Positions 8,080-22,151 of a stretch of DNA of 44,711 nt are shown one piece after another. Below the pieces are notes generated by a model. The model did not search any database, was not told where the DNA came from, and saw only the letters and a list, made by a program, of their open reading frames with translations. The position numbers were made by a program, and so were the translations under genes. Source of the stretch: a virus. Numbering within the stretch: position 1 is the first letter of the stretch; each line of letters begins with the position of its first letter. The stretch covers positions 1-44,711 of the IMG/VR virus record IMGVR_UViG_3300008120_000085. One strand, given 5' to 3'.

Positions 8080-8091
8080 TAAAACAAGGTA

Positions 8092-8424: not shown

Positions 8425-8463
8425 ATTAATCTTTTATACATTTCTTTGTACATTTTATGGTGA

Positions 8464-9063
8464 TTACAAAATACTATTATCAACAAACGAATAATATCCG
8501 TCAATAGTTATAATTAAATGTTCAAGTAGTTTTAAATCAAGTACATCTGCTGCTAACTTTATCTTCTTAGTAAGAGTAATGTCATCCTGAGATGGATTTA
8601 TATTACCACTAGGATGGTTATGCGCAATGATAAAACCAGACACACGATTGTGTTCTAATATCTTTTTGAACAATATCTTAGTGTCAACAACAGTTGCAGA
8701 TACACCGCCTTTAGAAATCTGTATGGGCTTGCAGATAGCTACATTGTTTCTAGTCAATGGTAGGAAGTAAAACTCTTCGTGATTCAATAATCCCATGAAC
8801 TTGAAATACTGGTAGCAATCATTACTTCTAGTTATCTGTGCGTTGTTTATGTCAGCCGGCACAATATTCTTTGCAAGATGTAGTTTTCTGGCACCTGATT
8901 TACTAAGCCCAATTTTTAAATAATCCTCTTCAGATGCAATCAAAGCTACATACTCATTGGGAAAATAGCCATATAGTTTTTCTGTGTCCTTGACGCCAAT
9001 AAGCTCTTGGATTAGTTCTTTATTAGGCTTTTTGTAGTCTGATTCGCTTTCTCTGAATATCAT
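8464..9063 (-). CDS. RadC-like JAMM/MPN domain protein (199 aa)
   Basis: The C-terminal domain holds a complete JAMM metal motif: His148-x-His150, PSGNINP, then Ser158-x-x-Asp161, with an upstream Glu in the HEEFYFLPLT strand (residues 95-104). This matches RadC-family DNA-repair-associated proteins, which usually carry an N-terminal HhH domain and are slightly longer; here residues 40-70 (YVALIAS, KSGARKLHLAKNI) could be a diverged HhH region. The biochemical role of RadC proteins is not settled; a peptidase- or nuclease-like zinc enzyme is possible. ATG 9061-9063 overlaps the upstream stop by 4 nt (ATGA), preferred over a TTG at 9084. Confidence 0.85.
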   Translation of the reverse strand: MIFRESESDYKKPNKELIQELIGVKDTEKLYGYFPNEYVALIASEEDYLKIGLSKSGARKLHLAKNIVPADINNAQITRSNDCYQYFKFMGLLNHEEFYFLPLTRNNVAICKPIQISKGGVSATVVDTKILFKKILEHNRVSGFIIAHNHPSGNINPSQDDITLTKKIKLAADVLDLKLLEHLIITIDGYYSFVDNSIL

Positions 9064-9686
9064 AACTCCTGTGAAATCTTCCAAAATGATAATGCTTTTT
9101 CTTCTGTTGACTCTTTTAATCTTTCAACAGCGTTAATGTAAAGATAATGAGGAGAATTGACAAATTCACCAGTTTTCATGTTCAAATAACATATATGCTC
9201 ATCAAGTGTATCAAATGTAGCTTCATCATGAACCAACTCTACGTATGGTTTGGTTCTGATATGATTGTCGCTAATAATCTCACCAGTGAAACATTTGTTA
9301 AGCACATATCGATTAAACTTTCTGCTATCTTCTTTGCTGTACGCAAACACATTTACCCCTTCGGTAACACTAGCAAACTTAGATGCCATATCCTGTACGT
9401 TTGTAATTGGTGCGCTCATTACTATACTGCCACCTCTAACAACAACAATGTAAATAGGAGTTGCTATTGATGTGTGGTGTACATAGTGAAGATACCAATC
9501 CCGGGGATCTGTATGCTGCGTAATGTAGTTCTCAAAATCTCTGATATTTTTTTCGAATAGCTGATTGAGAAACAAGTTCTGCTGAAATACTGACAAGCTA
9601 TCAAAAGAAATAGCTGGGCCGCCGTATACAACGACAGCCACAGCAATATTTCTACTCTGATACTTGCTAAAAGGAAATGTGTCCAT
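9060..9686 (-). CDS. Unknown protein between ParB-like and RadC-like genes (208 aa)
   Basis: Starts MDTFPFSKYQSRNIAVAVVVYGG, sharing one base with the stop of the ParB-like gene, and is coupled to the RadC-like gene by an ATGA overlap. Strand-rich segments (PIYIVVVRGGSIVMSAPI) alternate with charged helices. No catalytic motif recognised. Its fixed position between two DNA-metabolism genes suggests a linked function, which is inference. Confidence 0.72.
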   Translation of the reverse strand: MDTFPFSKYQSRNIAVAVVVYGGPAISFDSLSVFQQNLFLNQLFEKNIRDFENYITQHTDPRDWYLHYVHHTSIATPIYIVVVRGGSIVMSAPITNVQDMASKFASVTEGVNVFAYSKEDSRKFNRYVLNKCFTGEIISDNHIRTKPYVELVHDEATFDTLDEHICYLNMKTGEFVNSPHYLYINAVERLKESTEEKALSFWKISQEL

Positions 9687-11725
9687 TAGCCGATAACTTG
9701 ATATTTGTTCTTATCATTTTTGTAAGCAAATGCTGTCTTAAAGTTAAAGCATTCTTTCACTTTCGTAAAGAACGAAACAAACATTGCCCTTCTTCTCTGC
9801 TCTGTATCACTAGACTTAATGATGCCTTTGATATCAAATGTCTGCAACATAGCATTTGCATTGACAAAGTTATGCTCGTGCATTAAACTAGCAAGTTCTT
9901 TCATTTTGGCATTTAAATCAGTGCCATTAAGAGTTTCCTCTTTAGTTGCGGCATTAAACATTTCAGCGCCTTTTTCCTGACAAAGTTTTATCATTGCAAG
10001 GCCTGCAAGCATACTATCAGTATCGGCATCATCATCGATAGTGTTTAGTATCTGATTTACTAGATTCTTAACACGCATTCTCATAATAAACTCACTACCC
10101 TTGTATGGAATACCAATGTTTTTACAGATGTAAGTAAGCAATGCCTCATCAGCTTCGTCAATAGAATTGTACATGCTTTTGCCTGTTTCGTAGACATTGA
10201 TATAGCACATATCTGCAACAAACATACGTCTAGTTTTAGCATCGTCGTCAATCTCTTCAGATTTTTCTGTTGCTTTCTCGGTCATATCTGCACGCTTTAA
10301 CTCAATGTAGCCATACTCATTTTCGTATTCTTTCTCTAAATCAATGTTGTTGTCTTTAAAGAACATACTAAGAACATTAGGAGAATAGGATGCCATTGTC
10401 ATTAGATTGGCCTGCAAAAACACAGTCATTGCATACGATGCTCCGGCTTTGTCAACAAGGTCTACGCCATTGCTAATGCTATCATCAAGCAAGTGATCTA
10501 TACAAGCTTTCAATGTATTATTGATATGCATACCTTTAAAGAAAGCAAGTACAGCATAATCTAGTGATGCTCCATCTTGATTAAGTCGCTTCATCAATTT
10601 AAATACAACATCTTTTCTTGCTTGTTCTTTCAAACTAGTAATCTTACGATTAACGCGCTCAATAGCAGCATCTTGCTTTTTCTCTACATAGCTTTCTTCT
10701 GCTTTGACACTTTCAATCAAAGATGGCTTGACAAAGAACTTGATGCTACCATCATAATCCCAGCAAGCAACCTCTTCAGGATGTGTACCCATATCACATG
10801 GGACGTAGCCCATAATAGAATATCTATCAACGATTTTGAGTTTGTTATCATCGATAAACTTTTCCCAGTATGCTCTTGCTCTATCTTTTGTAGCATCACT
10901 ATCAGATGTTCTTGGCCTATCAAACATATTACCTACATTGATATACCATTTCTCTTCTTTAATATTTGGATGCACATTGCCATATAAATCAACAAAGCTT
11001 TCTTCAGGAACACTTTCAGATATTTCCGGCATGCAGTAGTTAGACAATCTTACTATTTCGCTGTCATCAAGTGCTTCTCCTTCTGTATGCAAATCACGAT
11101 CATAAATCTCTTCAATAATCATTTTCTGAACAGCATCAGGCATATCGCACAATGCAGTGGCACCAGACTCATCGATAACACCCTCAAAGCAGAGCTTGAT
11201 AGCTTCTTTGTTTAATGCTGCTATCTTACGAAGAGATGTTGCTCTATTGACAGAAATGCCAAGCTGACTAGCAATCTTTGGCAGTGTTACACCTTTGACA
11301 GCAACAGCCTGTCTTATTGCATGGGCCAGTGTAATAAAGTGCTGCTCACTACGAAGTACATTCTCAGTTAATGAATCGACAATGTTAATGCCATCCATGA
11401 TATAGACTGGTATCTCTGCAGTTACTCCAATCTCCTTACACAACTCTTCATAACGAGTGACAAATGTCATTGCTCTAGTATAACCGGCACGAACAACATA
11501 CTTGCCTTTTACTTGCTCGCAGATGATTGGCTGCAGTAATAATGAACCAGTCTTTTTGTAGGTCTCGACCATTGAACCATACATCTTATCAATAGCATCA
11601 CCATATGGAGTAGCATCATTTACGTCATAATCTATGCCGGCAAACCTAGGATTAGGTATAGAAAAGTCAAGCAAATCTGGAGTTACTTTCAACATTTCGT
11701 TTTTAATTTTAATATTAGAAGCCAT
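9686..11725 (-). CDS. parB: Large ParB-like DNA-binding protein (679 aa)
   Basis: The N-terminal 175 residues match the ParB/Spo0J core: a LLLQPIICEQVKGKYVVRAGYTRAM segment (65-86; GYTRA at the place of the GERRxRA CTP-binding box), LTENVLRSEQH (119-129; equivalent of ENLQRxDL), and an HTH around TLPKIASQLGISVNRATSL (147-165). ParB proteins bind parS and load as CTP-dependent clamps. The remaining 500 residues are helical, acidic and unfamiliar, making it about twice the usual ParB length. No ParA is visible in the window. It follows the SSB and ERF genes, so it may serve genome partition, recombination or replication control. A parS-like palindrome lies at 21528-21543. It appears to have its own unit, as a terminator sits just upstream. 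Confidence 0.8.
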   Translation of the reverse strand: MASNIKIKNEMLKVTPDLLDFSIPNPRFAGIDYDVNDATPYGDAIDKMYGSMVETYKKTGSLLLQPIICEQVKGKYVVRAGYTRAMTFVTRYEELCKEIGVTAEIPVYIMDGINIVDSLTENVLRSEQHFITLAHAIRQAVAVKGVTLPKIASQLGISVNRATSLRKIAALNKEAIKLCFEGVIDESGATALCDMPDAVQKMIIEEIYDRDLHTEGEALDDSEIVRLSNYCMPEISESVPEESFVDLYGNVHPNIKEEKWYINVGNMFDRPRTSDSDATKDRARAYWEKFIDDNKLKIVDRYSIMGYVPCDMGTHPEEVACWDYDGSIKFFVKPSLIESVKAEESYVEKKQDAAIERVNRKITSLKEQARKDVVFKLMKRLNQDGASLDYAVLAFFKGMHINNTLKACIDHLLDDSISNGVDLVDKAGASYAMTVFLQANLMTMASYSPNVLSMFFKDNNIDLEKEYENEYGYIELKRADMTEKATEKSEEIDDDAKTRRMFVADMCYINVYETGKSMYNSIDEADEALLTYICKNIGIPYKGSEFIMRMRVKNLVNQILNTIDDDADTDSMLAGLAMIKLCQEKGAEMFNAATKEETLNGTDLNAKMKELASLMHEHNFVNANAMLQTFDIKGIIKSSDTEQRRRAMFVSFFTKVKECFNFKTAFAYKNDKNKYQVIG

Positions 11726-11737
11726 ACAAATAGTTTA

Positions 11738-11771
11738 AAAAGTAGCCTGCACACAGTTTCCTTGTGCAGGC
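11738..11771 (-). terminator. Rho-independent terminator after ssb
   Basis: On the minus strand a perfect 9-bp stem GCCTGCACA/TGTGCAGGC (11745-11753 with 11763-11771, 9-nt loop) is followed by TACTTTTT. It lies between the ssb stop and the ParB-like gene start, so it should end or attenuate the upstream operon. Confidence 0.75.
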
Positions 11772-11786
11772 ATAGTGAAATAATAA

Positions 11787-12191
11787 TTAGAACGGCAAAT
11801 CACCTACAGGTTGCTCATCTTGTGAGCAAATCCATGAACCTGATTCATAGTACCAGCCTTCAATCCAAGTTGCTTTATAGCGAACTGTAGACTTTTCAAT
11901 CTTAGTATTATTGTCAGTCCACTTTTCAAGCTTAGGTAGTACGCGAACAACAGCCATCTGCTTTTGCAATACTATGTCTTTTACTTGTCTTACAAGTTTA
12001 TCGCCATAGGCAATGCAATTAGCATAGTACGGATCACTCTCCTGCTTGTTGCCATCTTTGTCTTTCCAGACATCTTTGATAAGGACAACAAACTTTACGC
12101 CTGGTCCTCTTTCGGTTGTGAACTCTTCTACTTTAGTGTCAAGGATTTTGCCCGACAACTGTGTGCCAGGGAGATACTTCTGTGTTTTCAT
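11787..12191 (-). CDS. ssb: Single-stranded DNA-binding protein (SSB-like)
   Basis: 134 aa, OB-fold-like beta-rich sequence: SGKILDTKVEEFTTERGPG, VKFVVLIKDVWKD, ANCIAYGDKLVRQV, MAVVRVLPKLE. The decisive feature is the C-terminal tip, DEQPVGDLPF, which mimics the acidic DDDIPF tip of bacterial SSBs used to recruit partner proteins. It would coat single-stranded DNA and work with the ERF annealing protein two genes upstream. A terminator follows. SSB identity is inferred from OB-like pattern, size, tip and context. Confidence 0.78.
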   Translation of the reverse strand: MKTQKYLPGTQLSGKILDTKVEEFTTERGPGVKFVVLIKDVWKDKDGNKQESDPYYANCIAYGDKLVRQVKDIVLQKQMAVVRVLPKLEKWTDNNTKIEKSTVRYKATWIEGWYYESGSWICSQDEQPVGDLPF

Positions 12192-12193
12192 GA

Positions 12194-13105
12194 TTAAAAT
12201 ATTAAATTTGGAATAACTTGTTTAGATAATACGCCAGCATCGTGTAATAGAAGAAGCACCGTAAATAGTCCTCTCTTTGTGAATACCGGGTATGTTGTCA
12301 TCTTATCTGCATCGTGGACATTGTAGCCAAAGCCATAAGCAACAAATTCTTTAGCGAGAAAATAATTGTTTTTGTAGTTTGCATCATTCATATCCTGTAT
12401 AATGATGCCATGCTCAACCAATACTTTCATTGTATCACGCAGTAATACTTTGTATTTATTGAATAAGAACTTATGAAAATCAAGTACATGAGTTTCTTTC
12501 TCAAAGTTCTCAACAATAGTTTTATTGTCTTCGCACATAGCACGGTAGGTATTTATGCTTAATCCGTACTCTCTGTAAAATGAATCTTCTTCAACTTCAG
12601 TATGTAGTTTATCAAGTAGTTTAGATCTTTTATTCTTTAACTCCTTATCTTCCTCGACATCTTTCTGCTTTTCTTGATAAGTATGTGGTACTATTACTGT
12701 TGTGTCTACAATATCTTTACGATATGCATTCTTAAGCATCGTAGTAAATATCTTCTCGAGATACAACTTCATATCGTAGTTACACCAAGTGTACATCTGT
12801 GCAAGCCAAAGATGTGATACAACGTAGTAACACATATCAGCTTTAGAAAATACACAGGCCATGGTAATTGTCCTGCCAATCTTATTGAGTTCTATATTTG
12901 TTTCCGCTATAAACTCATCTTTTGGTGTCCAGTTGCAGGCAAGTATGTAAGAGCTACAAACAAGAGGACATTCGATGTACAAATGCCCTCCAATAAACTT
13001 ATGTCTATATTGTTTTGTGAAGTTCCTAAGCATAGAATCTTTTACTATCTTAGGTTTTGGCTCTTTTATTACCTTTGGCTTTTCAGTAGGCTTTCTTTTA
13101 GCCAT
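12194..13105 (-). CDS. Unknown protein in the recombination operon (303 aa)
   Basis: Begins with a Lys/Pro-rich tail (AKRKPTEKPKVIKEPKPK) likely to be disordered and basic, followed by a globular domain with many Tyr and Cys, a Lys/Glu-rich linker near residues 150-170, and a helical C-terminal domain. The last 70 residues (LVEHGIIIQDMND, then TTYPVFTKRGLFTVLLLL) faintly resemble a KilA-C/antirepressor-like winged helix, a weak call. It starts inside the end of the ERF gene (8-nt overlap) and ends 2 nt before ssb, so it is probably part of the single-strand annealing or replication machinery. Confidence 0.72.
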   Translation of the reverse strand: MAKRKPTEKPKVIKEPKPKIVKDSMLRNFTKQYRHKFIGGHLYIECPLVCSSYILACNWTPKDEFIAETNIELNKIGRTITMACVFSKADMCYYVVSHLWLAQMYTWCNYDMKLYLEKIFTTMLKNAYRKDIVDTTVIVPHTYQEKQKDVEEDKELKNKRSKLLDKLHTEVEEDSFYREYGLSINTYRAMCEDNKTIVENFEKETHVLDFHKFLFNKYKVLLRDTMKVLVEHGIIIQDMNDANYKNNYFLAKEFVAYGFGYNVHDADKMTTYPVFTKRGLFTVLLLLHDAGVLSKQVIPNLIF

Positions 13106-13919
13106 GCTTATGCTTGGCTTGCTTTACGATATGCTCTCTTCTAATGTCATCTACAACAAAGTAATTGAATTTACCTTGTGTATAAGTATAAATGTACTTG
13201 CCATAAAGAAGTGTAGCACCATTCTTCTTCCAGTTTGCAAGAATGCCATCCAAGTGAGTAGCTATTATTGCACCATCGCCATTATAAAGCATGGTTTGAA
13301 TAGCCTCTTCAGTCGGATATTGAGGTTTAGTGCGCTCTGGTACATCAACAGTAGGCTTTGGCAATGTAACTACCTCAGTCTTTGGAGATATCTTTGGAGT
13401 TTCAATGTCCATACTATGAATCTTGTCAGTATCTTCACCGGTTGGGACCATAAAAATATTCAACAAGAAATATTTCATAGCATAAGTCATAGCCTTGCCC
13501 GGTGATTTATCCTGTGAGTCAATGCCATGGCCAGATGATTGACCTTCAATGTGTGCACCTGATGTATGATAAAGCCTGAAAGTAAACACAATATCAGAGA
13601 ATATTTGTTGCTTCTGCTTTACAGCACCAGTTTTAGAATAAGGATCTAGCTCTTGCCAGCGCTCGTGCTTTGTTTCCTTTTGTATCTCTACAGGAACACA
13701 GATAAGACCATGAGTAATCATGGATTTTCTGATAGTATCTCTAACTTTTTCATCTGATATTCCCTTGTAAGAACCAGAGCCGGTACCAACAGTATCATCT
13801 TTCTGCAGATAGTTTACCTCAGACATTACATTGAGGACTGCCTCAATCAGTTGTATATCTGGTGTCTTTTCTTCTGATGATTGTTTCGAGATTTCTGTCT
13901 TCGCCATATCTTCTTGCAT
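13098..13919 (-). CDS. erf: ERF-family single-strand annealing protein
   Basis: 273 aa. The N-terminal half matches the ERF family of phage annealing proteins: LIEAVLNVMSEV, GSYKGISDEKVRDTIRKSMITHGL, FTFRLYHTSGAHIEGQSSGHGIDSQDK, and SPGKAMTYAMKYFLLNIFMVPTGEDTD (roughly residues 24-165). ERF proteins anneal complementary single strands in phage recombination and genome circularisation. The C-terminal 100 residues form a separate charged part with a short TEEAIQTML helix. SSB lies two genes downstream. Two ATGs are possible (13919 and 13907); the first is given. Its 5' end overlaps the upstream gene by 77 nt. Confidence 0.9.
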   Translation of the reverse strand: MQEDMAKTEISKQSSEEKTPDIQLIEAVLNVMSEVNYLQKDDTVGTGSGSYKGISDEKVRDTIRKSMITHGLICVPVEIQKETKHERWQELDPYSKTGAVKQKQQIFSDIVFTFRLYHTSGAHIEGQSSGHGIDSQDKSPGKAMTYAMKYFLLNIFMVPTGEDTDKIHSMDIETPKISPKTEVVTLPKPTVDVPERTKPQYPTEEAIQTMLYNGDGAIIATHLDGILANWKKNGATLLYGKYIYTYTQGKFNYFVVDDIRREHIVKQAKHKHG

Positions 13920-14196
13920 AACTAATTGTGAAATATTTTATTTTAGAATTCTTCATTGCAGTAAATGACACTTCGACATTGTTCCTGATGCAATGAGATA
14001 CAGACTTGAATATATCATGCAGCATAACGCTACATATATTTTCCATTTCTTTTTCAGGTACAAGCATATCGTAGTTTAGGAAAAGTCTTTCAAACTTATC
14101 TTTGTGCTTGGCATACAAATACTTTCCGTACTCGCGTGCTGGCATCTCAGCATGATTAGACCTTGCCAGTCTACGTCGTATCATATCAAGTCCCAT
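13843..14196 (-). CDS. Unknown basic protein (117 aa)
   Basis: ATG at 14194-14196. Arg/Lys-rich with an N-terminal GLDMIRRRLARSNHAEM segment and a helical middle containing ENICSVMLHDIFKSV. The last 25 residues are read within the start of the ERF gene in another frame, an unusually long overlap (77 nt), so part of the tail may not be under selection. Located between two genes of the recombination region; possible nucleic-acid binding from its charge. No family recognised. Confidence 0.62.
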   Translation of the reverse strand: MGLDMIRRRLARSNHAEMPAREYGKYLYAKHKDKFERLFLNYDMLVPEKEMENICSVMLHDIFKSVSHCIRNNVEVSFTAMKNSKIKYFTISYARRYGEDRNLETIIRRKDTRYTTD

Positions 14197-15053
14197 AGTG
14201 CTTTATAGAAACATATTGGTTCGTTAGCAAACATTTTCTTAATTTCGGCATGTTCAGGAGTATATATCTTATTGGTAATTAAGATATTTTCTTTGTCATT
14301 AACCCAAGATTCTAGATTCTTCTGAATAAATCCTTTTAACGACAAGATATACTCGTCAGGAGTATTATCATCCTTACATTCCCAAAGATACAAAAACCAT
14401 TTCTTAATGATAAATAGAAATCCACTATATTGTGCATCATCACGCTCTTTGCCAGTGCTATTTGTACCTCCGCTAATACGCAATGCAGCATTAATCATAG
14501 TATCTTTAGTTGACCACTTATCGCCTTTTTCAAACCTAGACCACGCAAGAGCAAACAAACGAACTATTTCTCCTGGTTTTCTATAGTCTTTGATAGGTTT
14601 GATATTGAATAAGGTTTCAATGTCATCAATAAATGTTTCTATCTTATCTTGATTCCAATCAGAAAACTCAATAGTATTTTCATTGATTACAAGATAAGCA
14701 TACTCATCGTATTTGTAATGGTATTCACAATCTTTTGATTCCGGTATGTATTTAAGTCCTATGTACTGATAGTAAATATCAACAATTCCCTCTATTTCAG
14801 ATGTCCAGTATAAATCTTTTGGACAGGTAACAAGTTTGTTTTTGATAAAATAACTATATAAATTATTCTCTACAGTACCATAGTTATTATCAAACTTTAC
14901 ATCAAACTTCTGGCAGATTGACATAACAACATCTTCTGTTTTATGCTCTGCTTTTTCATCCACAATAATTGATAAAAAGTAAAGGGCATTATACCTTTTT
15001 AGTGATAAATGCCCTTTTATACAATTACTTGCGCTATACACAATACTATTCAT
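14181..15053 (-). CDS. Unknown protein in the recombination region (290 aa)
   Basis: ATG at 15051-15053 is preferred to a TTG one codon upstream. Rich in Tyr, Asp and Lys with no membrane segment. Landmarks: YYQYIGLKYIPE, a YRKPGEIVRLFALAWSRFEKGDKWS stretch around residues 158-182, and ISGGTNSTGKERDD. I see no nuclease or NTPase signature. It overlaps the glucosaminidase gene by 8 nt upstream and the next gene by 16 nt, so is co-transcribed with both. Confidence 0.72.
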   Translation of the reverse strand: MNSIVYSASNCIKGHLSLKRYNALYFLSIIVDEKAEHKTEDVVMSICQKFDVKFDNNYGTVENNLYSYFIKNKLVTCPKDLYWTSEIEGIVDIYYQYIGLKYIPESKDCEYHYKYDEYAYLVINENTIEFSDWNQDKIETFIDDIETLFNIKPIKDYRKPGEIVRLFALAWSRFEKGDKWSTKDTMINAALRISGGTNSTGKERDDAQYSGFLFIIKKWFLYLWECKDDNTPDEYILSLKGFIQKNLESWVNDKENILITNKIYTPEHAEIKKMFANEPICFYKALWDLI

Positions 15054-15906
15054 CAAGATTTGCTAAATTATAAGAGTTAATAATATGCCTCAACTCAGCT
15101 ACGTACCTACTAGTAACGCCATCACTTGCAGGCCATGCACAAGCACTTGCATAAAGATATCCACCTTTATCAGCAAGTCTTTTGGAGTCTGATGCAAGCA
15201 TACGACTATCACTACATCCACAAATAGCAGCAAGCCAGGCTTCTCTTTTGTTTTGAATGTTTATTAGTCTTGGAGCATAAGTTTTATTCAATAGCTGCAC
15301 ATGATTCCACATAGACCACCAACGAGATTCATACTTGCGAAAATGATAACTGATGGTCTTGCCATTGATATTCTTATCGTAGGCTTTTACACTACCAGAT
15401 ATACCGCGTGATGTTTCTGTTTTACCACCCATATGACCAAACAAGTTGTTAGCTACAATAGCTAGTCTACTGGTACCATAACCTGATTCAAGAATAGCTT
15501 GTGCTGCAATGATACTGGCCGGGACATTGAACTTAATAGCTAAGTCTTTAGCATTCTTAGATATCTCATCTATAAATGCTTGTCTTTCTTTGCCTATTCT
15601 AGTTCTTAGTCTTGCTAACTTTTCCTGATCACCTTTTAGATGATGACCATGAAACTCACTAGTTGACATATACCCACGCTTAGACCAACCATCTTCATCA
15701 TATCCAACATCAGGATATAACTCATCGGCACCAGCATGTATGTACTTATGTTCAACAGATTCTCTGCTAGTCATTTTGCCGTTAGAATGACTTCTTTCAG
15801 CTACACTAGTGCCGTAATCTATAGATTTTGCTGTTGGTTCATCAACTATGCAATAAGCTGCAATAGCAACTATCAGCAAGAATAAAGATACATTGATTGT
15901 TTTCAT
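15046..15906 (-). CDS. Exported glucosaminidase (FlgJ/LytG-type) peptidoglycan hydrolase
   Basis: 286 aa. Residues 6-22 form a hydrophobic signal or anchor (VSLFLLIVAIAAYCIV), so the catalytic domain faces the periplasm. The domain starts near residue 108; VPASIIAAQAILESGYGTSRLA (128-149) contains the catalytic Glu140, and ANNLFGHMGG (152-161) is the classic second block. The tail LADKGGYLYASACAW...RYVAELRHIINSYNL is typical of the family. It would cut the glycan strand at GlcNAc linkages. Unlike the amidase endolysin it lies in the early/recombination block, next to genes of unknown function, suggesting a use other than final lysis, or a different timing. Confidence 0.88.
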   Translation of the reverse strand: MKTINVSLFLLIVAIAAYCIVDEPTAKSIDYGTSVAERSHSNGKMTSRESVEHKYIHAGADELYPDVGYDEDGWSKRGYMSTSEFHGHHLKGDQEKLARLRTRIGKERQAFIDEISKNAKDLAIKFNVPASIIAAQAILESGYGTSRLAIVANNLFGHMGGKTETSRGISGSVKAYDKNINGKTISYHFRKYESRWWSMWNHVQLLNKTYAPRLINIQNKREAWLAAICGCSDSRMLASDSKRLADKGGYLYASACAWPASDGVTSRYVAELRHIINSYNLANLDE

Positions 15907-16631
15907 AACTTTGCCATTAAAGCTGTTAAGGAATTGGAACTCTTCTCTCGTTCTTCAGCGAACACTGGTGAAGTTTCCTTTCTTATGGTATTCAAGTTAT
16001 CTATACCAGCAACAAACATAGTATAACGCTGTGTGCCTACAAGCTTTTTCATTTTACGCTTTCCTTCAGCACAGATAGCTAAACGCCATTTATCTGCTAG
16101 TTTTAGATCAGTAGCTACATATATCAGGCCTTTAGGACTATCATATCCTCTGATGCCATATATTACATCAAGTACATACTGAATATGGAATGACAACTCA
16201 GGATAATACAACTCACCTTCTTCATCTTTGACAGCTGGATAAAACATACAGCTAAGTATGTCAGATTCCTGCTGTGGTGTTATAAAGGCCATGTCCTGTA
16301 TTTCTTTATTGTCAACGCTAAACAATGGTGCCTTGCCTGCTTCTATGATACTATCAATACATAACCACATAGGAACAACAGTTTCTATTGGTTCGAAGTA
16401 GATATCACATAGTGCTACTTTGAATACCGGGTCTGCATACCTTACCTTAATAGTCCAAGGTGCTATAAGGTATACCTTTTCTAAGAATAACATAGCTATA
16501 AGATTATCAAGCTCTTGAAATGTTCTTATGCAATCAAAACCAAAAGAACGCAGCAAAGAGTTCCTCTCAACTGCGTCCTGTGGTATGACGTTCTTCTCAG
16601 AAAGGAGGTTTAGTAGCTCCCGTAACGACAT
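15903..16631 (-). CDS. Unknown protein (242 aa)
   Basis: ATG at 16629-16631 lies 35 nt inside the upstream gene; the stop overlaps the glucosaminidase start (ATGA). The N-terminus is helical (LRELLNLLSEKNVIPQDAVERNSLL); the middle alternates strands (VYLIAPWTIKVRYADPVFKVALCDIYF); the C-terminus ends in SSNSLTALMAKL. Mostly neutral, no transmembrane segment, no recognised motif. Together with the gene upstream it follows the Gp157-family gene, an arrangement that suggests one functional cluster. Confidence 0.72.
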   Translation of the reverse strand: MSLRELLNLLSEKNVIPQDAVERNSLLRSFGFDCIRTFQELDNLIAMLFLEKVYLIAPWTIKVRYADPVFKVALCDIYFEPIETVVPMWLCIDSIIEAGKAPLFSVDNKEIQDMAFITPQQESDILSCMFYPAVKDEEGELYYPELSFHIQYVLDVIYGIRGYDSPKGLIYVATDLKLADKWRLAICAEGKRKMKKLVGTQRYTMFVAGIDNLNTIRKETSPVFAEEREKSSNSLTALMAKL

Positions 16632-17430
16632 TATGTGCCGACTTAATATGTTCTACGATGCTACTATAGGTTGACATAGCAAGATGTGCTTCCTTATGAT
16701 GTTTAACATCTTGATAAAGCCTATGCGGTATGTCTTTCAGCGCATCTTTGTATACTTCGAAGTACCAGTTAAGTGGATCAAAGTAACGCACTTGTTTGTG
16801 TTCACGAAGCTTAAAGAAGTTATCTATGTTTGGCACCAGATGTGCTTTCTTGGACTTCAATAGTTCAAGCTTTTTGCCTTCGAAGTTTAGCTGCATATCC
16901 ATAGTAAACAATAGTTTGTTGCGGATAGCACCGATATTTTCCTGTGCTTGCTCAGACATCTTGTACAATAGATTCACTGCTAGCTTTAGCACACCAAGTG
17001 TTACTGGCTTGGTTGCTACTTTCTCGTAGTAGTTTTCTAGTTGCATAGCCATACGAAAGCATTTGCCTGATGTGTTACCCATACGAGCGATAAGCTCAAA
17101 TGTAGGTAAGAAGTTCATCTCTTTCAGCTGTTGCTCCTGGCTAGAAACACTTAATACATTTTCTGCATCTTCTGTTTCCAATAGATGCTTTGCTGTATGT
17201 GATGTGTGTTCTGACTGTGAGTAGTATATAGGTTCTACACCAACGAGAGAGTTTTCCCAAGTAAGCATCTCTTCCGGTTGTAGACTAATATACTTTTGAA
17301 GTATTTTTGCAGCGTCATCAGTCTGAAACCCAATAAGGTTAGTGCTGATAGAGTAGTGATCACCACGTTCGGTATCACCCATGAACGATGCAAGGACTTC
17401 AGCTATTCTTTTCTGTTCCTGCTTTTTCAT
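16597..17430 (-). CDS. Unknown helical protein downstream of Gp157 (277 aa)
   Basis: ATG at 17428-17430, 2 nt after the Gp157-family stop. Strongly helical with Gln/Glu/Lys-rich segments (SSQEQQLKEMNFLPTFELIARMG, VLKLAVNLLYKMSEQ). The C-terminal part contains WYFEVYKDALKDIPHRLYQDVKHHKEAHL. No NTPase or nuclease motif seen. Likely an accessory DNA-metabolism protein by position. Confidence 0.72.
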   Translation of the reverse strand: MKKQEQKRIAEVLASFMGDTERGDHYSISTNLIGFQTDDAAKILQKYISLQPEEMLTWENSLVGVEPIYYSQSEHTSHTAKHLLETEDAENVLSVSSQEQQLKEMNFLPTFELIARMGNTSGKCFRMAMQLENYYEKVATKPVTLGVLKLAVNLLYKMSEQAQENIGAIRNKLLFTMDMQLNFEGKKLELLKSKKAHLVPNIDNFFKLREHKQVRYFDPLNWYFEVYKDALKDIPHRLYQDVKHHKEAHLAMSTYSSIVEHIKSAHNVVTGATKPPF

Positions 17431-17432
17431 TG

Positions 17433-17915
17433 TTATCTGATTAGTAATGAAAACTTCTCTACTATTGTAGCGCCAGGGACATCAATGCCTGATTCCAGAG
17501 CTTCTTTTATAGCAGTTTTGTTTGGTTCTATTTTTAAACGACAATATTGTGATGGAATATCAGCATCTTCTGCAATCTCTACAGATTTGTTTCTCCTTGT
17601 TGAGATGCTGACGAAGTTTGTTTTAACGCTTCCAAGCTGAACAATAGATGATAATAGGTTATCTTCAAGTCGCTCAACTGACTTGTCATATGTTCTAGCT
17701 GCATCAAGTAATCGTTTTGCTTCCCTTTTAAGGAGTTCAGACTTTGACTTAAGCTGTCTAATGACAGCAGCATATCCCTCACACTTTGATTCCCTATCAT
17801 GTTCAGTTATGATTAATTGTTCTTCAAGTTCTGGTGTCAACTCACCGCCATTTTCTTCGATCTGCTGATGCAATCGGAACATGTCATCATTGATGTTAAA
17901 AAGATTCTTTGCCAT
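17433..17915 (-). CDS. Siphovirus Gp157-family protein
   Basis: 160 aa. The layout fits Gp157: N-terminal helices with GGELTPELEEQL, a long coiled coil from about residue 40 to 92 (VIRQLKSKSELLKREAKRLL...VERLEDNLL), then a compact C-terminal part VSISTRRNKSVEI...IPSQY and IKEALESGIDVPGATIVEKFSL. Proteins of this family sit beside annealing and SSB genes in many phages; their role is unknown, though the original member was linked to altered phage resistance in Streptococcus thermophilus. It starts at the stop of the gene upstream (1-nt overlap). Confidence 0.85.
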   Translation of the reverse strand: MAKNLFNINDDMFRLHQQIEENGGELTPELEEQLIITEHDRESKCEGYAAVIRQLKSKSELLKREAKRLLDAARTYDKSVERLEDNLLSSIVQLGSVKTNFVSISTRRNKSVEIAEDADIPSQYCRLKIEPNKTAIKEALESGIDVPGATIVEKFSLLIR

Positions 17916-18256
17916 TATAGTACGTTGTTTTCTGTGGTTACTATGTTAATCAATGCTGGATTCAAATCAAATACAGCTCCATTTGAAGTCAAAACATACC
18001 AGTCATCGTTAAATCCGCTGACAATTTTACCTTGTCTACCATTGTAAGTAACTATATCACCATCACGATATTTGTATGGCATACCGTAAACAGTAGCATC
18101 TTGCTTTAGCCAGACGTTGTTATCGTTCTCACTTGAATGTAACCAGAGTTCACCATCGGTGCTCATTCTTAGGCTTTTAATATCAAAGGCCAAGAATACT
18201 TGATCACCTTCTTTGTAGTTTCTTTCAGATAGTTCCGATGCTTTAAACTTTTCCAT
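17915..18256 (-). CDS. Unknown beta-rich protein (113 aa)
   Basis: ATG at 18254-18256. Contains a KOW/Tudor-like stretch, KYRDGDIVTYNGRQGKIVSGF, followed by DWYVLTSNGAVFDLNP, typical of small beta-barrels. The N-terminus (FKASELSERNYKEGDQVFLAFD) is also consistent with a short beta-barrel. It follows a terminator, so it probably begins a new transcript with the Gp157 operon. Function unknown; a nucleic-acid or protein-binding adapter is possible. Confidence 0.7.
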   Translation of the reverse strand: MEKFKASELSERNYKEGDQVFLAFDIKSLRMSTDGELWLHSSENDNNVWLKQDATVYGMPYKYRDGDIVTYNGRQGKIVSGFNDDWYVLTSNGAVFDLNPALINIVTTENNVL

Positions 18257-18270
18257 AATCGATTGTTGTT

Positions 18271-18308
18271 AATAAAAATGCCTGCAGACTCGTTTGATCT
18301 ACAGGCAT
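18271..18308 (-). terminator. Rho-independent terminator
   Basis: Minus-strand stem of 11 positions with a single mismatch (ATGCCTGTAGA with TCTGCAGGCAT; 18278-18288 against 18298-18308), 9-nt loop, followed by TTTTATT. It lies between the exported-protein gene and the next gene on the same strand, splitting the block into separate transcripts. Confidence 0.7.
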
Positions 18309-18328
18309 ATAGTTGTGAAATAAAATGT

Positions 18329-18817
18329 TTAGTTTTTGCTGATGCAGTCGAATGTATTCATTAGCTTTGTAGCAACCTCATCACTAAGATCTTCTTGAAG
18401 ATAGCCACTACTTGTATACACACGCATGGTCTTTATTCTCTTAGTTCTAAACTGAGTTAGATTGTACTCATTGCCGAAGTTACCACCAAAGTAAATGACA
18501 AAGCTACCTTTACAGTTGAAATCATTTACGTTGGTCATGGTAATTCTTGTATCATCATCGAACAACACTTGAAGTTTTGCTCCTTTTTCGATACATTTAC
18601 TTGGCCCACCAACAACATCAATGCTCCAGATAAGAATACTTGGCTTTAGAAAGTCAATAACAAAACCCTTGTTGCCTGATTCTGAAACAGCAATTCTTTT
18701 CTTGATGGTTAAGGTTTTCTTGTCATCCATCTTATCGTAATGGATATCAAGCATGTCACAATCCTGTGCAAACAAAGACACAGACATGAGCATAAGCATA
18801 CTAATCAATGCTTTCAT
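18329..18817 (-). CDS. Exported (periplasmic) unknown protein (162 aa)
   Basis: The ATG at 18815-18817 gives a textbook Bacteroidetes signal peptide, MKALISMLMLMSVSLFA with cleavage before Gln18; a TTG ten codons upstream would add only a basic extension. The mature part is beta-rich with three or four Cys (DCDM, SKCIEKG, FNCKG, DCISKN) that could form disulfides, and an IYFGGNFGNEYNLTQF segment. No recognised domain. An early phage gene exporting a small protein fits superinfection exclusion or envelope modification, but this is inference. A terminator follows. Confidence 0.75.
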   Translation of the reverse strand: MKALISMLMLMSVSLFAQDCDMLDIHYDKMDDKKTLTIKKRIAVSESGNKGFVIDFLKPSILIWSIDVVGGPSKCIEKGAKLQVLFDDDTRITMTNVNDFNCKGSFVIYFGGNFGNEYNLTQFRTKRIKTMRVYTSSGYLQEDLSDEVATKLMNTFDCISKN

Positions 18818-19016
18818 TTTCTTGTTTGTTTTTAATATGTTCTTCAATAAGTTCCTCGATAGATGTATAAGCTAGTTGCCATTCGTGTGAAGGAGAACCG
18901 CCTTCGTCTATCTCATCGATTGCAAGATAAATGAAATCCATAATATCATTAAATAATTCTGGATATTGTTTAATCATATTATCTGCAAACATTGTTACTG
19001 TTCTTTTGTCCATCAT
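18801..19016 (-). CDS. Small acidic unknown protein (71 aa)
   Basis: The ATG at 19014-19016 overlaps the upstream stop as ATGA and is preferred to a TTG at 19037. Helical and strongly acidic (DFIYLAIDEIDEGG, YTSIEELIEEHI). No motif recognised. Its 3' end overlaps the exported-protein gene by 17 nt. Confidence 0.65.
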   Translation of the reverse strand: MMDKRTVTMFADNMIKQYPELFNDIMDFIYLAIDEIDEGGSPSHEWQLAYTSIEELIEEHIKNKQENESID

Positions 19017-19612
19017 TTGTAACCAATCATTGTGCAAAGAGGTCCCAAGATATCAGCTACAAGCATAACAGCTTTAGCCTTAGGTCTTGCGTTGTCATTT
19101 AATCCATCTAATCCTTTGTTTAACGAAGGATATGATGGCATGATACTGTTCCAGTTTCCTAATATGCAACTGCTACTAATAACATTGCATTCTTCTTGGA
19201 TGCTATTTGTTTTTAATGAACCGGTTCTGTCTACAACAGTATATGCTTTGGTCATAGCAGCACTAAGCTCTTTACCATTACGCTTATACTCATGTGCTAT
19301 AGTCATAACATAGCTCATATCTTTCTTAAATCTTGGCTCATATCTCTTACGCGCTAACTCTACAAACAATGTAGAGATATAATGTGATAAATAGCTGAAT
19401 CCAAACTGTCTGCCCTGGTACTCATAGTCCCATTTGTAATGGAAGAAGTTTCTATGCTTTGCTTGCAAGCCGGCAAACTTTCTGACAATAGCAGAGCATG
19501 CATCAACAATAGCTTTCTTCTCTTCTTTAGTAGCCAGCTCGCATTCAAAGGTTTCTTTAGCCTCGATAATCTGAGCTGAGAACTTATCGATTGTTTCTTG
19601 AATATCTCTCAT
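19013..19612 (-). CDS. Unknown helical protein (199 aa)
   Basis: ATG at 19610-19612, first gene after a terminator. The N-terminal 60 residues are helical with Lys/Glu/Ala (SAQIIEAKETFECELATKEEKKAIV), followed by a Tyr-rich middle (FHYKWDYEYQGRQFGFSYLSHYI) and a C-terminal RPKAKAVMLVADILGPLC stretch. The last hydrophobic part is too short and broken for a clear membrane span. No family recognised. Confidence 0.7.
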   Translation of the reverse strand: MRDIQETIDKFSAQIIEAKETFECELATKEEKKAIVDACSAIVRKFAGLQAKHRNFFHYKWDYEYQGRQFGFSYLSHYISTLFVELARKRYEPRFKKDMSYVMTIAHEYKRNGKELSAAMTKAYTVVDRTGSLKTNSIQEECNVISSSCILGNWNSIMPSYPSLNKGLDGLNDNARPKAKAVMLVADILGPLCTMIGYK

Positions 19613-19637
19613 GATAATATGATTTAAAGAATGAAAT

Positions 19638-19664
19638 AAAAAGGGCAGCCATTACAGCTGCCCC
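19638..19664 (-). terminator. Rho-independent terminator
   Basis: Minus strand: perfect stem GGGCAGC/GCTGCCC (19643-19649 with 19657-19663), 7-nt loop, followed by TTTTT. It lies 25 nt past the stop of the gene at 19689 and ends that transcript. Confidence 0.78.
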
Positions 19665-19688
19665 AACACTTATAAAACAAACACTAGT

Positions 19689-20174
19689 CTAATCTTCAAT
19701 ATCGTAATGATATACACGCTGGTATTCATCATCACGCATAACTTTTACGTTGGTATTGTTACCTTTCAACTGTGCAACAGCGCATTCGTATGGTACTATA
19801 TACCCATACTTGTTGAAGTACACAGGCTTATAAACTAAATCTTCACCAGATGTATATTTGTACCCGGTAAACTCTATTGTTTCTATGTAAGCTTGTACAA
19901 AAGATGATAAATCTCTTACAACTATTTCAGGCTTTATGTCGCTAAACACAGCAAGACATTCAACTAAGTCTTTACTCTTAGCTAATGATTCAAGGTTATG
20001 GTATGCAATAATAGTATCGTACTGTCCTAAATCTTCTTCAGGAACAGCAATAGATACCTGTACTTCCATAAGATTGTTATCACGCTGTCCGAATACAGTA
20101 CAAGCATTCATTAGTAATACGATAACCGCAATAATAATAGCGTTTACCATATAGTTGTCATAATTGTTTTTCAT
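19689..20174 (-). CDS. Membrane-anchored or exported unknown protein (161 aa)
   Basis: Residues 9-30 are hydrophobic (MVNAIIIAVIVLLMNACTVFG) and followed by Gln-Arg, fitting either a signal peptide cut at VFG-Q or, with the Cys in MNAC, a poorly matching lipobox. The rest is acidic and soluble, with paired strands (NLMEVQVSIAVPEED) and a Tyr-rich C-terminus. It starts 2 nt after the preceding gene and precedes a terminator. An envelope role is plausible; no family recognised. Confidence 0.7.
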   Translation of the reverse strand: MKNNYDNYMVNAIIIAVIVLLMNACTVFGQRDNNLMEVQVSIAVPEEDLGQYDTIIAYHNLESLAKSKDLVECLAVFSDIKPEIVVRDLSSFVQAYIETIEFTGYKYTSGEDLVYKPVYFNKYGYIVPYECAVAQLKGNNTNVKVMRDDEYQRVYHYDIED

Positions 20175-20176
20175 AA

Positions 20177-20518
20177 CTAGATAAATGTTTTAAATGAAAT
20201 AATCTTTTTAATCTCTTCAATACTACTCACTGCATCAGCATCACCACCATCGTCGTCTTTACTACTTCCAACGATAAGCGCATTGCCAATTAAATGTTGT
20301 TCTCCCCAACTATTACCTGGTACGCTAATGACAAATCCATTCCTATTTGTTTGGAATAATCCTTCATCATCAACGTACATGTAGTCGCCATTGTTAAAAG
20401 AATATCCTCCAGTGATAACATCGCAGCCTATAAGACTGCGAATCTCTCTAAAGTCATTGCCTTTAATCCTGGCCTCGTAGACATTCTTGTCATTGCTATC
20501 TATGAATATCGCTCTCAT
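20177..20518 (-). CDS. Unknown protein (113 aa)
   Basis: ATG at 20516-20518, overlapping the upstream membrane-protein stop by 4 nt. Beta-rich, with GCDVITGGYSFNNGDYMYVDD and a GSSKDDDGGDADAVSS acidic loop before a final helix. No signal or membrane segment, no recognised family. It sits between two membrane or exported proteins. Confidence 0.65.
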   Translation of the reverse strand: MRAIFIDSNDKNVYEARIKGNDFREIRSLIGCDVITGGYSFNNGDYMYVDDEGLFQTNRNGFVISVPGNSWGEQHLIGNALIVGSSKDDDGGDADAVSSIEEIKKIISFKTFI

Positions 20519-20706
20519 AACTCTGATTCATTATATAAGTTATTAGATGCAGCTATACACAAGAAACCACCAATGATATAAAGAACCATAATAGTAGCAC
20601 TAAATAGTACACTATATGAATGATCATCAGTAACTACAAATACAAAGCTACCTACAAACGCAAAGATACCCATCAAGAAAAAGATGGCGCTAAAAAATAG
20701 TTTCAT
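20515..20706 (-). CDS. Small two-helix membrane protein (63 aa)
   Basis: Two hydrophobic segments, residues about 3-25 (LFFSAIFFLMGIFAFVGSFV) and 32-54 (YSVLFSATIMVLYIIGGFLC), separated by a short DDHS turn, with a charged C-terminal tail NLYNESEL. ATG at 20704-20706 lies inside the end of the upstream gene (17-nt overlap). Small inner-membrane protein of unknown role; holin and superinfection-exclusion functions are both conceivable. Confidence 0.7.
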   Translation of the reverse strand: MKLFFSAIFFLMGIFAFVGSFVFVVTDDHSYSVLFSATIMVLYIIGGFLCIAASNNLYNESEL

Positions 20707-21241
20707 TGTTAATGTGTTTTAGAAATAAAATAATATTGTTTTCAAATGTTTCGCCAGTTACAGTAGTAGTTATATCATCCAGCTGAATCACATAACTACA
20801 ATGATGTAAGTTCAGCTCCTGTAAATACAAATCGTTGCTTCTCATGATTTCTATAGCTAACACTAATCTGTATGATGTATTAAACCAGATGGTTAACGCA
20901 ACAGATATACTCTCATGTGTTATCTTCCTCAACTTATCATGGAACTCTGTGCAGTAGTCATAACAATCACCAATATCAAAATGATAATCATTATATACAT
21001 AGTGTCTTGTGCTACCCTCGAAGAACTCTAATCCATACTCATCATCAGATGATATACCAGAGGTTTTAATAGCATGCATCACCAACTCATCTGCTATGAA
21101 ACTTAAATATGTTCCAATAGCATACTTCTGTTGTAATGAACTGCTATCAATCATAGATTGTAACAACAATAAAGATAGCTCCACATCTCCAGCCAAGAAT
21201 AATGTAGAGCATTTCTTTATCATATCATCTAGTTCTTGCAT
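20690..21241 (-). CDS. Unknown protein (183 aa)
   Basis: ATG at 21239-21241, 13 nt inside the small membrane-protein gene upstream. Mostly helical, acidic, with many Ser, Leu and His (ELNLHHCSYVIQLDD) and an N-terminal helix containing LELSLLLLQSM-like hydrophobic repeats that are not long enough to be membrane spans. No motif recognised. Confidence 0.68.
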   Translation of the reverse strand: MQELDDMIKKCSTLFLAGDVELSLLLLQSMIDSSSLQQKYAIGTYLSFIADELVMHAIKTSGISSDDEYGLEFFEGSTRHYVYNDYHFDIGDCYDYCTEFHDKLRKITHESISVALTIWFNTSYRLVLAIEIMRSNDLYLQELNLHHCSYVIQLDDITTTVTGETFENNIILFLKHINNETIF

Positions 21242-21375
21242 GCTGGTCCTATTATAGCAAAGAAACTAAGTACAGCAGTAACTAATGTAGGTAACTGTGT
21301 CCAAGTACAGTAAAGGAACACAGACAATACTAATGTCATCAGCATTCCCCAATAGTTAGATATAAACTCTTTCAT
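21229..21375 (-). CDS. Tiny two-helix membrane protein (48 aa)
   Basis: A minus-strand frame from ATG 21373-21375 to TAG 21229-21231. The product starts MKEFISNYWG, then two hydrophobic stretches at about 10-25 (GMLMTLVLSVFLYC) and 29-44 (PTLVTAVLSFFAIIG), and ends PACKN. Overlapping the next gene by 13 nt is consistent with operon structure. It is the promoter-proximal gene of the long minus block, directly beside the parS-like region. Function unknown. Confidence 0.6.
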   Translation of the reverse strand: MKEFISNYWGMLMTLVLSVFLYCTWTQLPTLVTAVLSFFAIIGPACKN

Positions 21376-21630
21376 AATGTATATTTAGTTTAGTTAATAA
21401 TCACCTATAAATAAAAACATTCAATCGCTAGCAGTATCAGTAGTATAACACTAATAGAGTTGTGCGATATGACATAGAGTAGAGTAATGCGCAGCAAGAG
21501 GTAGCCACTCACACCTTTTCCCTATCATGTTCCACGTGGAACAATAGCACTAACAGTCTGACAGTCAACGCTATAAGTATAATCATTATCTAATAGTTGT
21601 GCCTCTTACTAACAGTAGTATGAACATTCT
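21376..21630. other. Non-coding intergenic region, possible partition/origin region
   Basis: 255 nt with no convincing gene on either strand. It holds the 16-bp parS-like palindrome (21528-21543) and two copies of the 9-mer ACTAACAGT (21549-21557 and 21608-21616), and is bounded on the right by a terminator. It lies next to the point where minus- and plus-strand gene blocks diverge, the sort of place where phage origins and control regions occur. No iteron array or DnaA-box cluster was recognised. Confidence 0.5.
21528..21543. other. parS-like palindrome
   Basis: TGTTCCACGTGGAACA, a perfect 16-bp inverted repeat. It agrees with the bacterial parS consensus TGTTTCACGTGAAACA at 14 of 16 positions; the two differences are symmetric and at sites that vary in natural parS sequences. 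It is non-coding and the genome encodes a ParB-like protein at 9686-11725. Only one copy was noticed. Confidence 0.7.
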
Positions 21631-21659
21631 AAAAAAACCCCACGTCCGAAGACGCAGGG
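21631..21659 (-). terminator. Rho-independent terminator with UUCG tetraloop
   Basis: Minus strand: CCCTGCGTC-TTCG-GACGTGGGG followed by seven T, i.e. a 9-bp stem (two wobble pairs) closed by a very stable C(UUCG)G loop. It lies 7 nt past the stop of the 21667-21990 gene and isolates that gene from the rest of the minus block. Confidence 0.85.
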
Positions 21660-21666: not shown

Positions 21667-21990
21667 TTAATTCTGTGGTACAGGTATTCTTGTCTCGACT
21701 ACGGCTTTAGCAGCTATAGTAAGATGTAACTCTGTACCAATCTCGAAGACGAACTCGCCATCCTCTAGGAATTGGTCAAGTATCGAATCCTTTCTCATTT
21801 GATCGATTAGTTGGAATGCTCCGATAGTTCCCTTGTCAGTAAGAATACAAGCGGACGCCTTAGCACCCCAAGTACCTTTACCGATAAGTTTAACTTCGTG
21901 GTCACCTTCTTTCATGAACAGCGGCTGATTTTTCTCGCCCTTTTCAATGATTGAATCAACTTTGCCTAATGAAACTTTTGATGTGCTCAT
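21667..21990 (-). CDS. Unknown protein, monocistronic at the divergent switch (107 aa)
   Basis: The ATG at 21988-21990 (MSTSKVSLGKVDSIIEKG) is chosen; a further 44 codons open upstream but run through the hairpin and read like non-coding sequence. The product has charged N-terminal residues, then KLIGKGTWGAKASACILTDKGTIG and a beta-rich end FEIGTELHLTIAAKAVVETRIPVPQN. No family recognised. It has its own terminator, lies at the divergent control region and is therefore a candidate early regulator or an abundant DNA-associated protein; this is positional inference. Confidence 0.68.
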   Translation of the reverse strand: MSTSKVSLGKVDSIIEKGEKNQPLFMKEGDHEVKLIGKGTWGAKASACILTDKGTIGAFQLIDQMRKDSILDQFLEDGEFVFEIGTELHLTIAAKAVVETRIPVPQN

Positions 21991-22026
21991 AATACATGAA
22001 ATTAAAAGAGTTAGATAATGATTTAA

Positions 22027-22072
22027 CGCGGGGGTACGATACATTAAGTGCCCTCCCGTCTTTTTTCTTTTT
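22027..22072 (+). promoter_or_regulatory. Strong hairpin plus T-rich tract between divergent genes
   Basis: CGCGGGGGTAC (22027-22037) pairs with GTGCCCTCCCG (22048-22058): 8 Watson-Crick pairs, 2 G-T wobbles and 1 mismatch, 10-nt loop, followed on the plus strand by TCTTTTTTCTTTTT. It looks like a plus-strand terminator placed upstream of the plus-strand module, or a structured leader of the minus-strand gene. Confidence 0.5.
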
Positions 22073-22086
22073 CCTCTACCAAAAAC

Positions 22087-22117: not shown

Positions 22118-22151
22118 GCCATTATTCGTTCACTATTAAATCTATATTATT

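Follow-up and report, generated by a model that had tools for sequence, protein, structure and literature searches.

A chromosomal-type parS palindrome between genes of a phage distantly related to the Crassvirales: a possible docking site for host ParB

Partition sites on chromosomes and mobile elements

The parS site of chromosomal ParABS partition systems has the consensus sequence TGTTnCACGTGnAACA. An exact match, the perfect 16 bp palindrome TGTTCCACGTGGAACA, is present in the IMG/VR virus record IMGVR_UViG_3300008120_000085, a phage DNA of 44,711 bases that was analysed over its full length and is termed here the window. The same DNA encodes a ParB-like protein of 679 amino acids (aa), termed P0001. 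The palindrome is identical to the sequence given as parS of Pseudomonas putida (PMC7022226), and the C/G form of the site is described as common to all chromosomal parS of Pseudomonas (PMC5450999). Among Bacteroidota, 72 of 99 genomes have the consensus as well. The site differs from its chromosomal counterparts in being located on a phage and as a single copy, where ParA was not detected and no ParB appears fit to read it.

The nearest precedent is SGI1, which has copies of the IncC plasmid parS, binds the plasmid ParB and gains stability, as found by experiment (PMC10954446). SGI1 is a mobile element with the parS of another replicon in its cell. The phage may be a further one, the likeness here being to chromosomal parS in general rather than to the parS of a named host. 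SGI1 copies a plasmid site, whereas the phage has a chromosomal one, for which use of the host ParB is proposed.

Phages with partition functions of their own have been described. The cyanophage Mic1 is reported to have its own ParA, ParB and a non-canonical palindrome, and P1 and N15 are named in the same report as phage plasmid systems (PMC7156551). The aim may be shared, i.e. to keep a circular phage genome in dividing cells, but the phage clade studied here shows neither ParA nor a parS-type ParB. The Staphylococcus phage Lacachita has a lone ParB without ParA (PMC10286716); it resembles the present phage in having a ParB-like protein and no ParA found in the genome, and differs in having no exact canonical parS. 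Phage proteins in which a ParB-CTPase fold is fused to other regions have been surveyed (PMC12704722). P0001 likewise appears to combine a diverged ParB fold with an extra region, and differs in that its C-terminal ∼450 residues show no family match over cut-off in the libraries searched.

The available sections of that survey of ParB-like fusions contain no mention of a phage-borne chromosomal parS, nor do those of a study of chromosomal parS and prophages in gut bacteria (PMC10197239) mention parS inside prophages. No report of chromosomal parS in phages was recognised among the matches listed from the literature searched, which covered no preprints and few subscription papers. The host-ParB docking site proposed here looks like one case of a common phage habit, and perhaps an undescribed one.

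The palindrome and the conserved block around it

The site and its surroundings are as follows:

21528-21543, no strand: parS, TGTTCCACGTGGAACA; exactly the canonical chromosomal sequence, where host ParB is proposed to dock
21440-21600, no strand: conserved non-coding block that contains parS; 95.6% identical to relative G001 and 94.9% to relative G003

TGTTCCACGTGGAACA is the sole perfect palindrome of 16 bp or more in the window (lengths of 12 to 30 bp were tested). An exact match at 14 positions in 44,711 bases is expected 0.00017 times at the base composition of the window. A reading made earlier from the sequence only had pointed to this palindrome as a non-coding parS and put the expectation at about 0.0002, and both points hold: the longest stop-to-stop frame across the site is 36 codons.

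Three close relatives (G001–G003; 86,966, 88,548 and 87,877 bases) are present in IMG/VR, with P0001 at 92–93% identity. In the first of these the portal gene is divided between both contig ends, an arrangement that points to a complete circular genome. A single copy of the exact site occurs in every relative, in the syntenic intergenic place, and thus the site is present in four of four clade members, the window included. The syntenic intergenic region is 94, 88 and 88% identical to that of the window over 282–294 bases. Identity over the block itself is ∼95%, versus 74.8% (G001) and 73.1% (G003) for the neighbouring gene 20690-21241. Three genes measured in the clade are only 89–92% identical, and one is 73–75% identical. 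The non-coding element at 21440-21600 thus seems, by sequence comparison, to be under constraint.

A structured RNA was considered as the cause of this conservation and rejected on the fold z-scores of −0.31 and −0.02, which give no signal of RNA structure in 21440-21570. The block has no Rfam match at E ≤ 1; elsewhere in the window SNORD75 alone matches, below its gathering score, and no tRNA was found.

Outside the clade, the exact sequence TGTTTCACGTGGAACA is found between open reading frames of G168, a distant terminase relative of 32.1 kb. A site with one mismatch in another record, G127, lies within an open reading frame of 6,603 aa and is taken as chance. The parS site is not an order-wide trait, since all 12 Crassvirales/Fipvunavirus records examined and 46 of 47 distant terminase relatives are without an exact copy. 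The latter were the 47 scanned out of the best 80 of 577 terminase relatives, and many of the records are fragments.

The ParB-like protein and the probable reader of the site

Three features of the minus strand concern P0001:

9686-11725, minus strand: ParB-like protein P0001, 679 aa, 92–93% identical in three relatives
11342-11566, minus strand: diverged ParB/CTPase-fold boxes, residues 54-128 (G81..R84; E121-N122..R125), part of the P0001 gene
11090-11341, minus strand: ParB-type helix-turn-helix, residues 129-212, with six of seven host-conserved parS contacts changed (L148, I157, V159, S164, S187, T190)

The sequence-only reading regarded P0001 as a ParB-family protein. This stands in part: the N-terminal third is ParB-like but diverged, with matches to the NCBIfam models Noc (E 8.6e-6) and parB_part (E 7.4e-4) that fall far short of the curated cut-offs, as well as to Pfam HTH_ParB (E 0.007, below cut-off) and a PHROG helix-turn-helix protein (E 0.0023). 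The gene is on the minus strand and not on the plus strand. R84 and E121-N122..R125 are retained as candidate CTP-fold residues. A section heading of PMC12704722 states that sequence is an unreliable predictor of nucleotide specificity in ParB-CTPase-fold proteins.

For the C-terminal ∼450 residues, the Pfam, NCBIfam and PHROG libraries searched give no family match that reaches its cut-off. A PDB profile search with P0001 gives nothing at E ≤ 1, and a single-sequence search gives Noc only, at E 0.18–0.24. AlphaFold2 with four sequences returns a mean predicted local distance difference test score of 38 and no usable model, and a weak match to PADLOC PbeC is seen (E 0.0018). The earlier suggestion that the C-terminal residues replace ParA or tie a clamp to replication or packaging finds no support in these searches. 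No P0001 homologues were found in annotated phages, in IMG/VR beyond the three relatives (two pattern-based queries), among 35 candidate stretches of genome contigs, or in nine further records read whole or largely.

Residues of Caulobacter ParB that touch parS are Q162, G170, K171, S172, R173, N178, G201 and R204 (Jalal et al. 2020, PMC7383237), and R173 and G201 are described as absolutely conserved among ParB orthologs (PMC7383237). These positions were compared in P0001 and in 15 Bacteroidota ParBs from genomes picked for having the site, aligned to P0001 by MAFFT and hhalign. The host set started from 16 HTH_ParB loci, which came from 15 of 17 genomes; L284 was dropped for having no open reading frame with the motif, and position 172, variable among host ParBs, was omitted from the count. 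Gly170, Lys171, Arg173, Asn178 and Gly201 are present in 15 of 15 host ParBs, Gln162 in 14 and Arg204 in 13. P0001 has L148, G156, I157, V159, S164, S187 and T190 at these seven positions, and the same residues are found in all four clade members. Both programs align the recognition helices without a gap. By this weak ungapped alignment, only Gly170 is retained and six of the seven host-conserved contacts differ. The ParA-binding motif LG[KR]GL, present in 14 of 15 host ParBs, is absent from P0001; the motif can also be lacking in plasmid ParBs (PMC13245405).

The sequence-only reading saw no ParA, and profile searches agree: PF13614 at E ≤ 1 is found in none of four records (the window and three relatives), with 14 of 14 control genomes positive.

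The portal, terminase and major head protein in the 44.7 kb record match PHROG families and identify it as a phage. Its portal and terminase are homologous to those of Crassvirales but distant. Among the matches listed, the nearest annotated relatives by portal are Crassvirales at 19–23% identity; the terminase matches are at 25–29%, and by this gene the Flavobacterium phages FpV4 and Fpv3, at 25%, are also among the nearest. The listed hosts of these Crassvirales and FpV4/Fpv3 relatives are Bacteroidota, and from this distant resemblance of structural genes we infer a Bacteroidota host.

The parS consensus is present at 1–5 copies in each of the 72 positive Bacteroidota genomes. The 99 are an even draw around Flavobacterium soli (G004), itself picked for having the site, and without this centre genome the count is 71 of 98; 16 further genomes, also picked for the site, were excluded. 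A reversed-pattern control occurs in one of the 99. The listed matches include C/G, T/A and mixed forms. As P0001 has lost most contact residues and the LG[KR]GL motif while Bacteroidota genomes have the consensus, the likely reader of the palindrome is the host ParB. Thus the phage ParB-like protein and the palindrome are probably not one system.

parS between genes of other viruses

IMG/VR was scanned for exact 16-mers, a copy being classed as coding when it lies within an open reading frame of at least 80 aa. The first form, TGTTCCACGTGGAACA, is present in at least 120 stretches. The second symmetric form, TGTTTCACGTGAAACA, is also found in at least 120, of which 119 with new ids were classified; both sets have an unknown sampling order. 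Complete scans with two control palindromes gave 54 stretches for TGTTCCAGCTGGAACA and six for TGTTCCTCGAGGAACA. The GC of contigs was not matched, and ratios of parS to control abundance are lower bounds.

Among the matches listed, 60 of 127 copies of TGTTCCACGTGGAACA and 78 of 145 copies of TGTTTCACGTGAAACA are non-coding, versus two of 54 for the control TGTTCCAGCTGGAACA (Fisher p 1.2e-9 and 3e-12, respectively, calculated by site without lineage correction, the loci not being independent). The longest open frame is shorter than 100 codons at 48 of 127 listed copies of TGTTCCACGTGGAACA, versus three of 54 for TGTTCCAGCTGGAACA and none of six for TGTTCCTCGAGGAACA. The 56 non-coding first-form loci listed comprise 20 in one cluster and 36 in 33 other clusters. 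Since the two parS forms differ only at positions 5 and 12 and both are enriched between genes, the pattern fits a reading by ParB.

Hidden Markov models (HMMs) built from the 15 Bacteroidota host ParBs and the adjacent ParAs match no ParB and no ParA in the 120 first-form loci listed, and two ParBs and no ParA in the 119 second-form loci; one ParB is matched in the 54 control loci. Only one of the 120 non-coding loci listed (56 and 64 of the two forms) has a ParA or ParB HMM match in the DNA around the site. Twenty-five of the 56 first-form loci were taken as whole records (6.5–351 kb) and have 1–5 sites each. In these and G168, 26 parS-bearing records of which some are short contigs, no parB_part match at E ≤ 0.001 was found, whereas G001–G003 are positive.

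The longest open reading frames of the 56 loci match 68 PHROG families, and the 25 listed include portal (one family with eight members), head, tail and terminase. Taken as a set and not locus by locus, the parS loci are thus in many cases part of phage DNA. Five loci of one cluster (L051, L073, L101, L110, L111) have the two symmetric forms 7–8 bases apart. L073 belongs to the largest cluster, and its terminase shares 64% identity with the terminase of Pelagibacter phage HTVC027P. Three loci (L107, L521, L548) have five copies each. As a separate observation, the site pair of L051, L073, L110 and L111 is no more than 61 bases from a 487-aa open reading frame, which in L073 is the large terminase.

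A 40-base double-site query of annotated phages matched 226 records, and four examples, drawn from 20 listed and not representing a rate, are described here. In Glutamicibacter phage Voltaire, a phi29-like phage of 18.4 kb that comes from cheese, two copies separated by 3 bases lie between genes, with ParA and ParB absent from its 26 annotated features. Lactobacillus phage Iacchus (Herelleviridae, 138 kb; 177 features, 11 of them examined) has two intergenic copies. Bajarodino virus 6, an inovirus of 5.9 kb (L626, PQ006135.1), has six exact copies of TGTTTCACGTGAAACA, five of them intergenic and spread round the genome; ParA and ParB are absent from its nine annotated features. An unverified human-gut phage clone has one copy. 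Taken together, nine of ten copies in Voltaire, Iacchus and bajarodino virus 6 are intergenic. Listeria phages make up 79 of the 226 records, two being listed at 93.5% over 30 bases.

It seems to us somewhat more credible than the contrary that many unrelated phages (crAss-like phages, relatives of Pelagibacter phages, phi29-like phages, Herelleviridae and inoviruses) have independently gained intergenic chromosomal-type parS sites although they have no parS-type ParABS themselves, and that viral DNA is thereby loaded with clamps of host ParB-CTP. This would be a general and so far undescribed strategy of joining the host segregation machinery.

Proposed function and alternative readings

On balance, the palindrome is probably a genuine parS that is read by the host chromosomal ParB, with P0001 separate from it. 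After entry of the phage DNA, host ParB would nucleate at the palindrome, load onto the phage genome as CTP-dependent sliding clamps, and spread. The clamps would then link the phage genome to the host ParA/SMC segregation machinery. The benefit judged likeliest is positioning or partition of a circular phage genome during persistent, carrier-like infection, since a single site in each genome is closer to a centromere than to a sponge and carrier states occur in crAss-like phages. Genome compaction or protection would be a close second. P0001 is taken as a DNA-processing factor with another target because it sits among SSB-like, Erf, Gam-like and RadC-like genes; it would be a diverged DNA-binding protein with a ParB fold, part of a recombination module and not a reader of the palindrome. 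In a related experimental setting, parS engineered onto phage lambda gathers foci of ParB fused to cyan fluorescent protein after injection, and the focus-bearing cells went on to lyse (PMC13190303).

If host ParB does load on phage genomes at such sites, the infection cycle would involve a core protein of chromosome segregation. This could account for the persistence, in dividing hosts, of phages that lack integrases or partition genes. In addition, intergenic parS would provide a simple genome-scan signature for such phages, and direct tests in laboratory phage-host pairs would open up.

Several observations weigh against this interpretation. The whole block is conserved and the palindrome no more than its flanks, and 21667-22000, in the gene that follows the block, likewise shows 95.5% identity to G001 (G003 aligns over 140 bases only, at 74.3%). 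The exact site is present in none of the 12 Crassvirales/Fipvunavirus records, two of which are near-identical; these have no site at one mismatch or fewer and a single match with two mismatches. It is also missing from the 46 distant terminase relatives mentioned above, and from all 11 annotated phages related by terminase, closely or distantly, to L073. In the IMG/VR comparison, the order of the parS lists bears on the rates obtained, and just one control palindrome is frequent enough to compare. The Bacteroidota host rests on distant structural-gene similarity. The helix-turn-helix alignment behind the residue argument is weak (hhalign probability 30%, E 5e-4), and ParBs with diverged recognition helices do serve partition at other sites, as in SCP1 (PMC13245405).

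The sequence-only reading had left two possibilities side by side, a decoy or anchor for the host ParB and a partition or CTP-clamp system of the phage's own. The first has gained from the consensus in the probable host phylum, the lost contacts in P0001 and the parS-bearing viruses with no ParB or ParA detected; the second has lost ground with the change of six of seven contacts.

Within the first possibility, the site may act as a decoy that titrates or misplaces host ParB, or as a roadblock, and so disturbs segregation or SMC loading without any partition of the phage genome. This is unlikely, yet it is the most serious of the alternatives. The evidence from the site, the host consensus and the contact residues is equal for the decoy and for the docking site favoured here. 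The 5–6 copies in some viruses (L107, L521, L548 and the inovirus) would suit a decoy, as would the presence of parS in a phi29-like phage and a Herelleviridae phage, both from lytic groups. However, with one exact site per genome in the clade, versus the 1–5 of Bacteroidota genomes that have it, the element would titrate ParB only weakly, except at a high phage copy number.

That P0001 reads the palindrome as its own parS, with its C-terminal ∼450 residues standing in for ParA, is improbable. The ParB fold and helix-turn-helix are recognisable in P0001, and the conserved Arg (R84) and ENxxR persist. All four genomes have both P0001 and the site, and the site-less relatives read showed no homologue of P0001. 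A loss of the site from relatives that keep the ParB-like gene, proposed in the sequence-only reading as evidence against a link, is not seen among the three; such joint retention is no sign of a link between them, as conservation extends over the entire block around the site. Against a system of the phage's own, the changed contacts include those equivalent to Arg173 and Gly201, and neither ParA nor a ParA-binding motif was found. Furthermore, G168 has the exact site and neither a P0001 homologue in its 32 kb nor a parB_part match, and there is no ParB match in the other parS-bearing records searched.

Slightly less probable still is that the palindrome serves as an operator or as part of a replication origin and is recognised by some other factor, its identity with parS being incidental. 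The conserved non-coding block is upstream of a minus-strand gene cluster and near a GC-skew switch, but the skew switches where the genes change strand. A minus-strand sigma-70-like site overlaps the edge of the palindrome, but such sites are no commoner than in shuffles (4 versus 5.3). The block has no exact TTATnCACA box and no RNA structure signal, and the intergenic enrichment of both parS forms across viruses fits a reading by ParB. Chance or neutral carry-over of a host fragment is very improbable: 67 of 127 listed IMG/VR copies of the 16-mer lie inside open reading frames, so that a coding background exists, but 0.00017 copies are expected per window, 47–54% of listed copies are non-coding versus 4% for the control, and the site is kept in all four clade members despite the lower identity of the genes measured.

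Neighbouring genes and minor features

Other features of the window near these loci are the following:

11787-12191, minus strand: SSB-like gene adjoining the ParB-like gene (SSB E 0.0022, below cut-off); recombination/DNA-processing module
8464-9084, minus strand: RadC-like JAB-domain gene in the same cluster as the ParB-like gene
21638-21659, minus strand: intrinsic-terminator-like hairpin with a T run, downstream of the minus-strand open reading frame 21667-22122, from a consensus scan

In the region 8464-9686 (minus strand), the RadC-like JAB gene overlaps a 208-aa gene that has no convincing family match and that abuts the ParB-like gene. It is possible that these three genes form a functional unit. 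An endolysin-like gene with a hydrophobic N-terminus (15046-15906, minus strand; PHROG 3513, E 4e-19) is found within the minus-strand recombination-gene cluster.

DNA polymerase, helicase and primase were not found among the window proteins scanned (a subset of the open reading frames in 3000-31000; those of G003 were listed only), and the clade may use the host replisome.

Two further genes of the window have counterparts in the distant record G140. The region 3019-3882 (minus strand) encodes a radical SAM protein of the spore-photoproduct-lyase family, with a Pfam SPL match above its cut-off (E 4e-28), an NCBIfam match below its cut-off (E 7e-92) and a homologue 56% identical in G140. A class II aminoacyl-tRNA-synthetase-like protein (AsnRS/asparagine-synthetase-A-like) is encoded at 23322-24158 (plus strand); it matches PHROG 29758, of unknown function, and is 59% identical in G140.

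Beyond the window, giant open reading frames are present in relatives: 7,503 aa in G001 (29484-51995, plus strand), at least 6,611 aa in G003 (1-19836, plus strand) and 6,603 aa in G127 (27984-47795). A GYGGVGKS stretch is found within those of G001 and G003.

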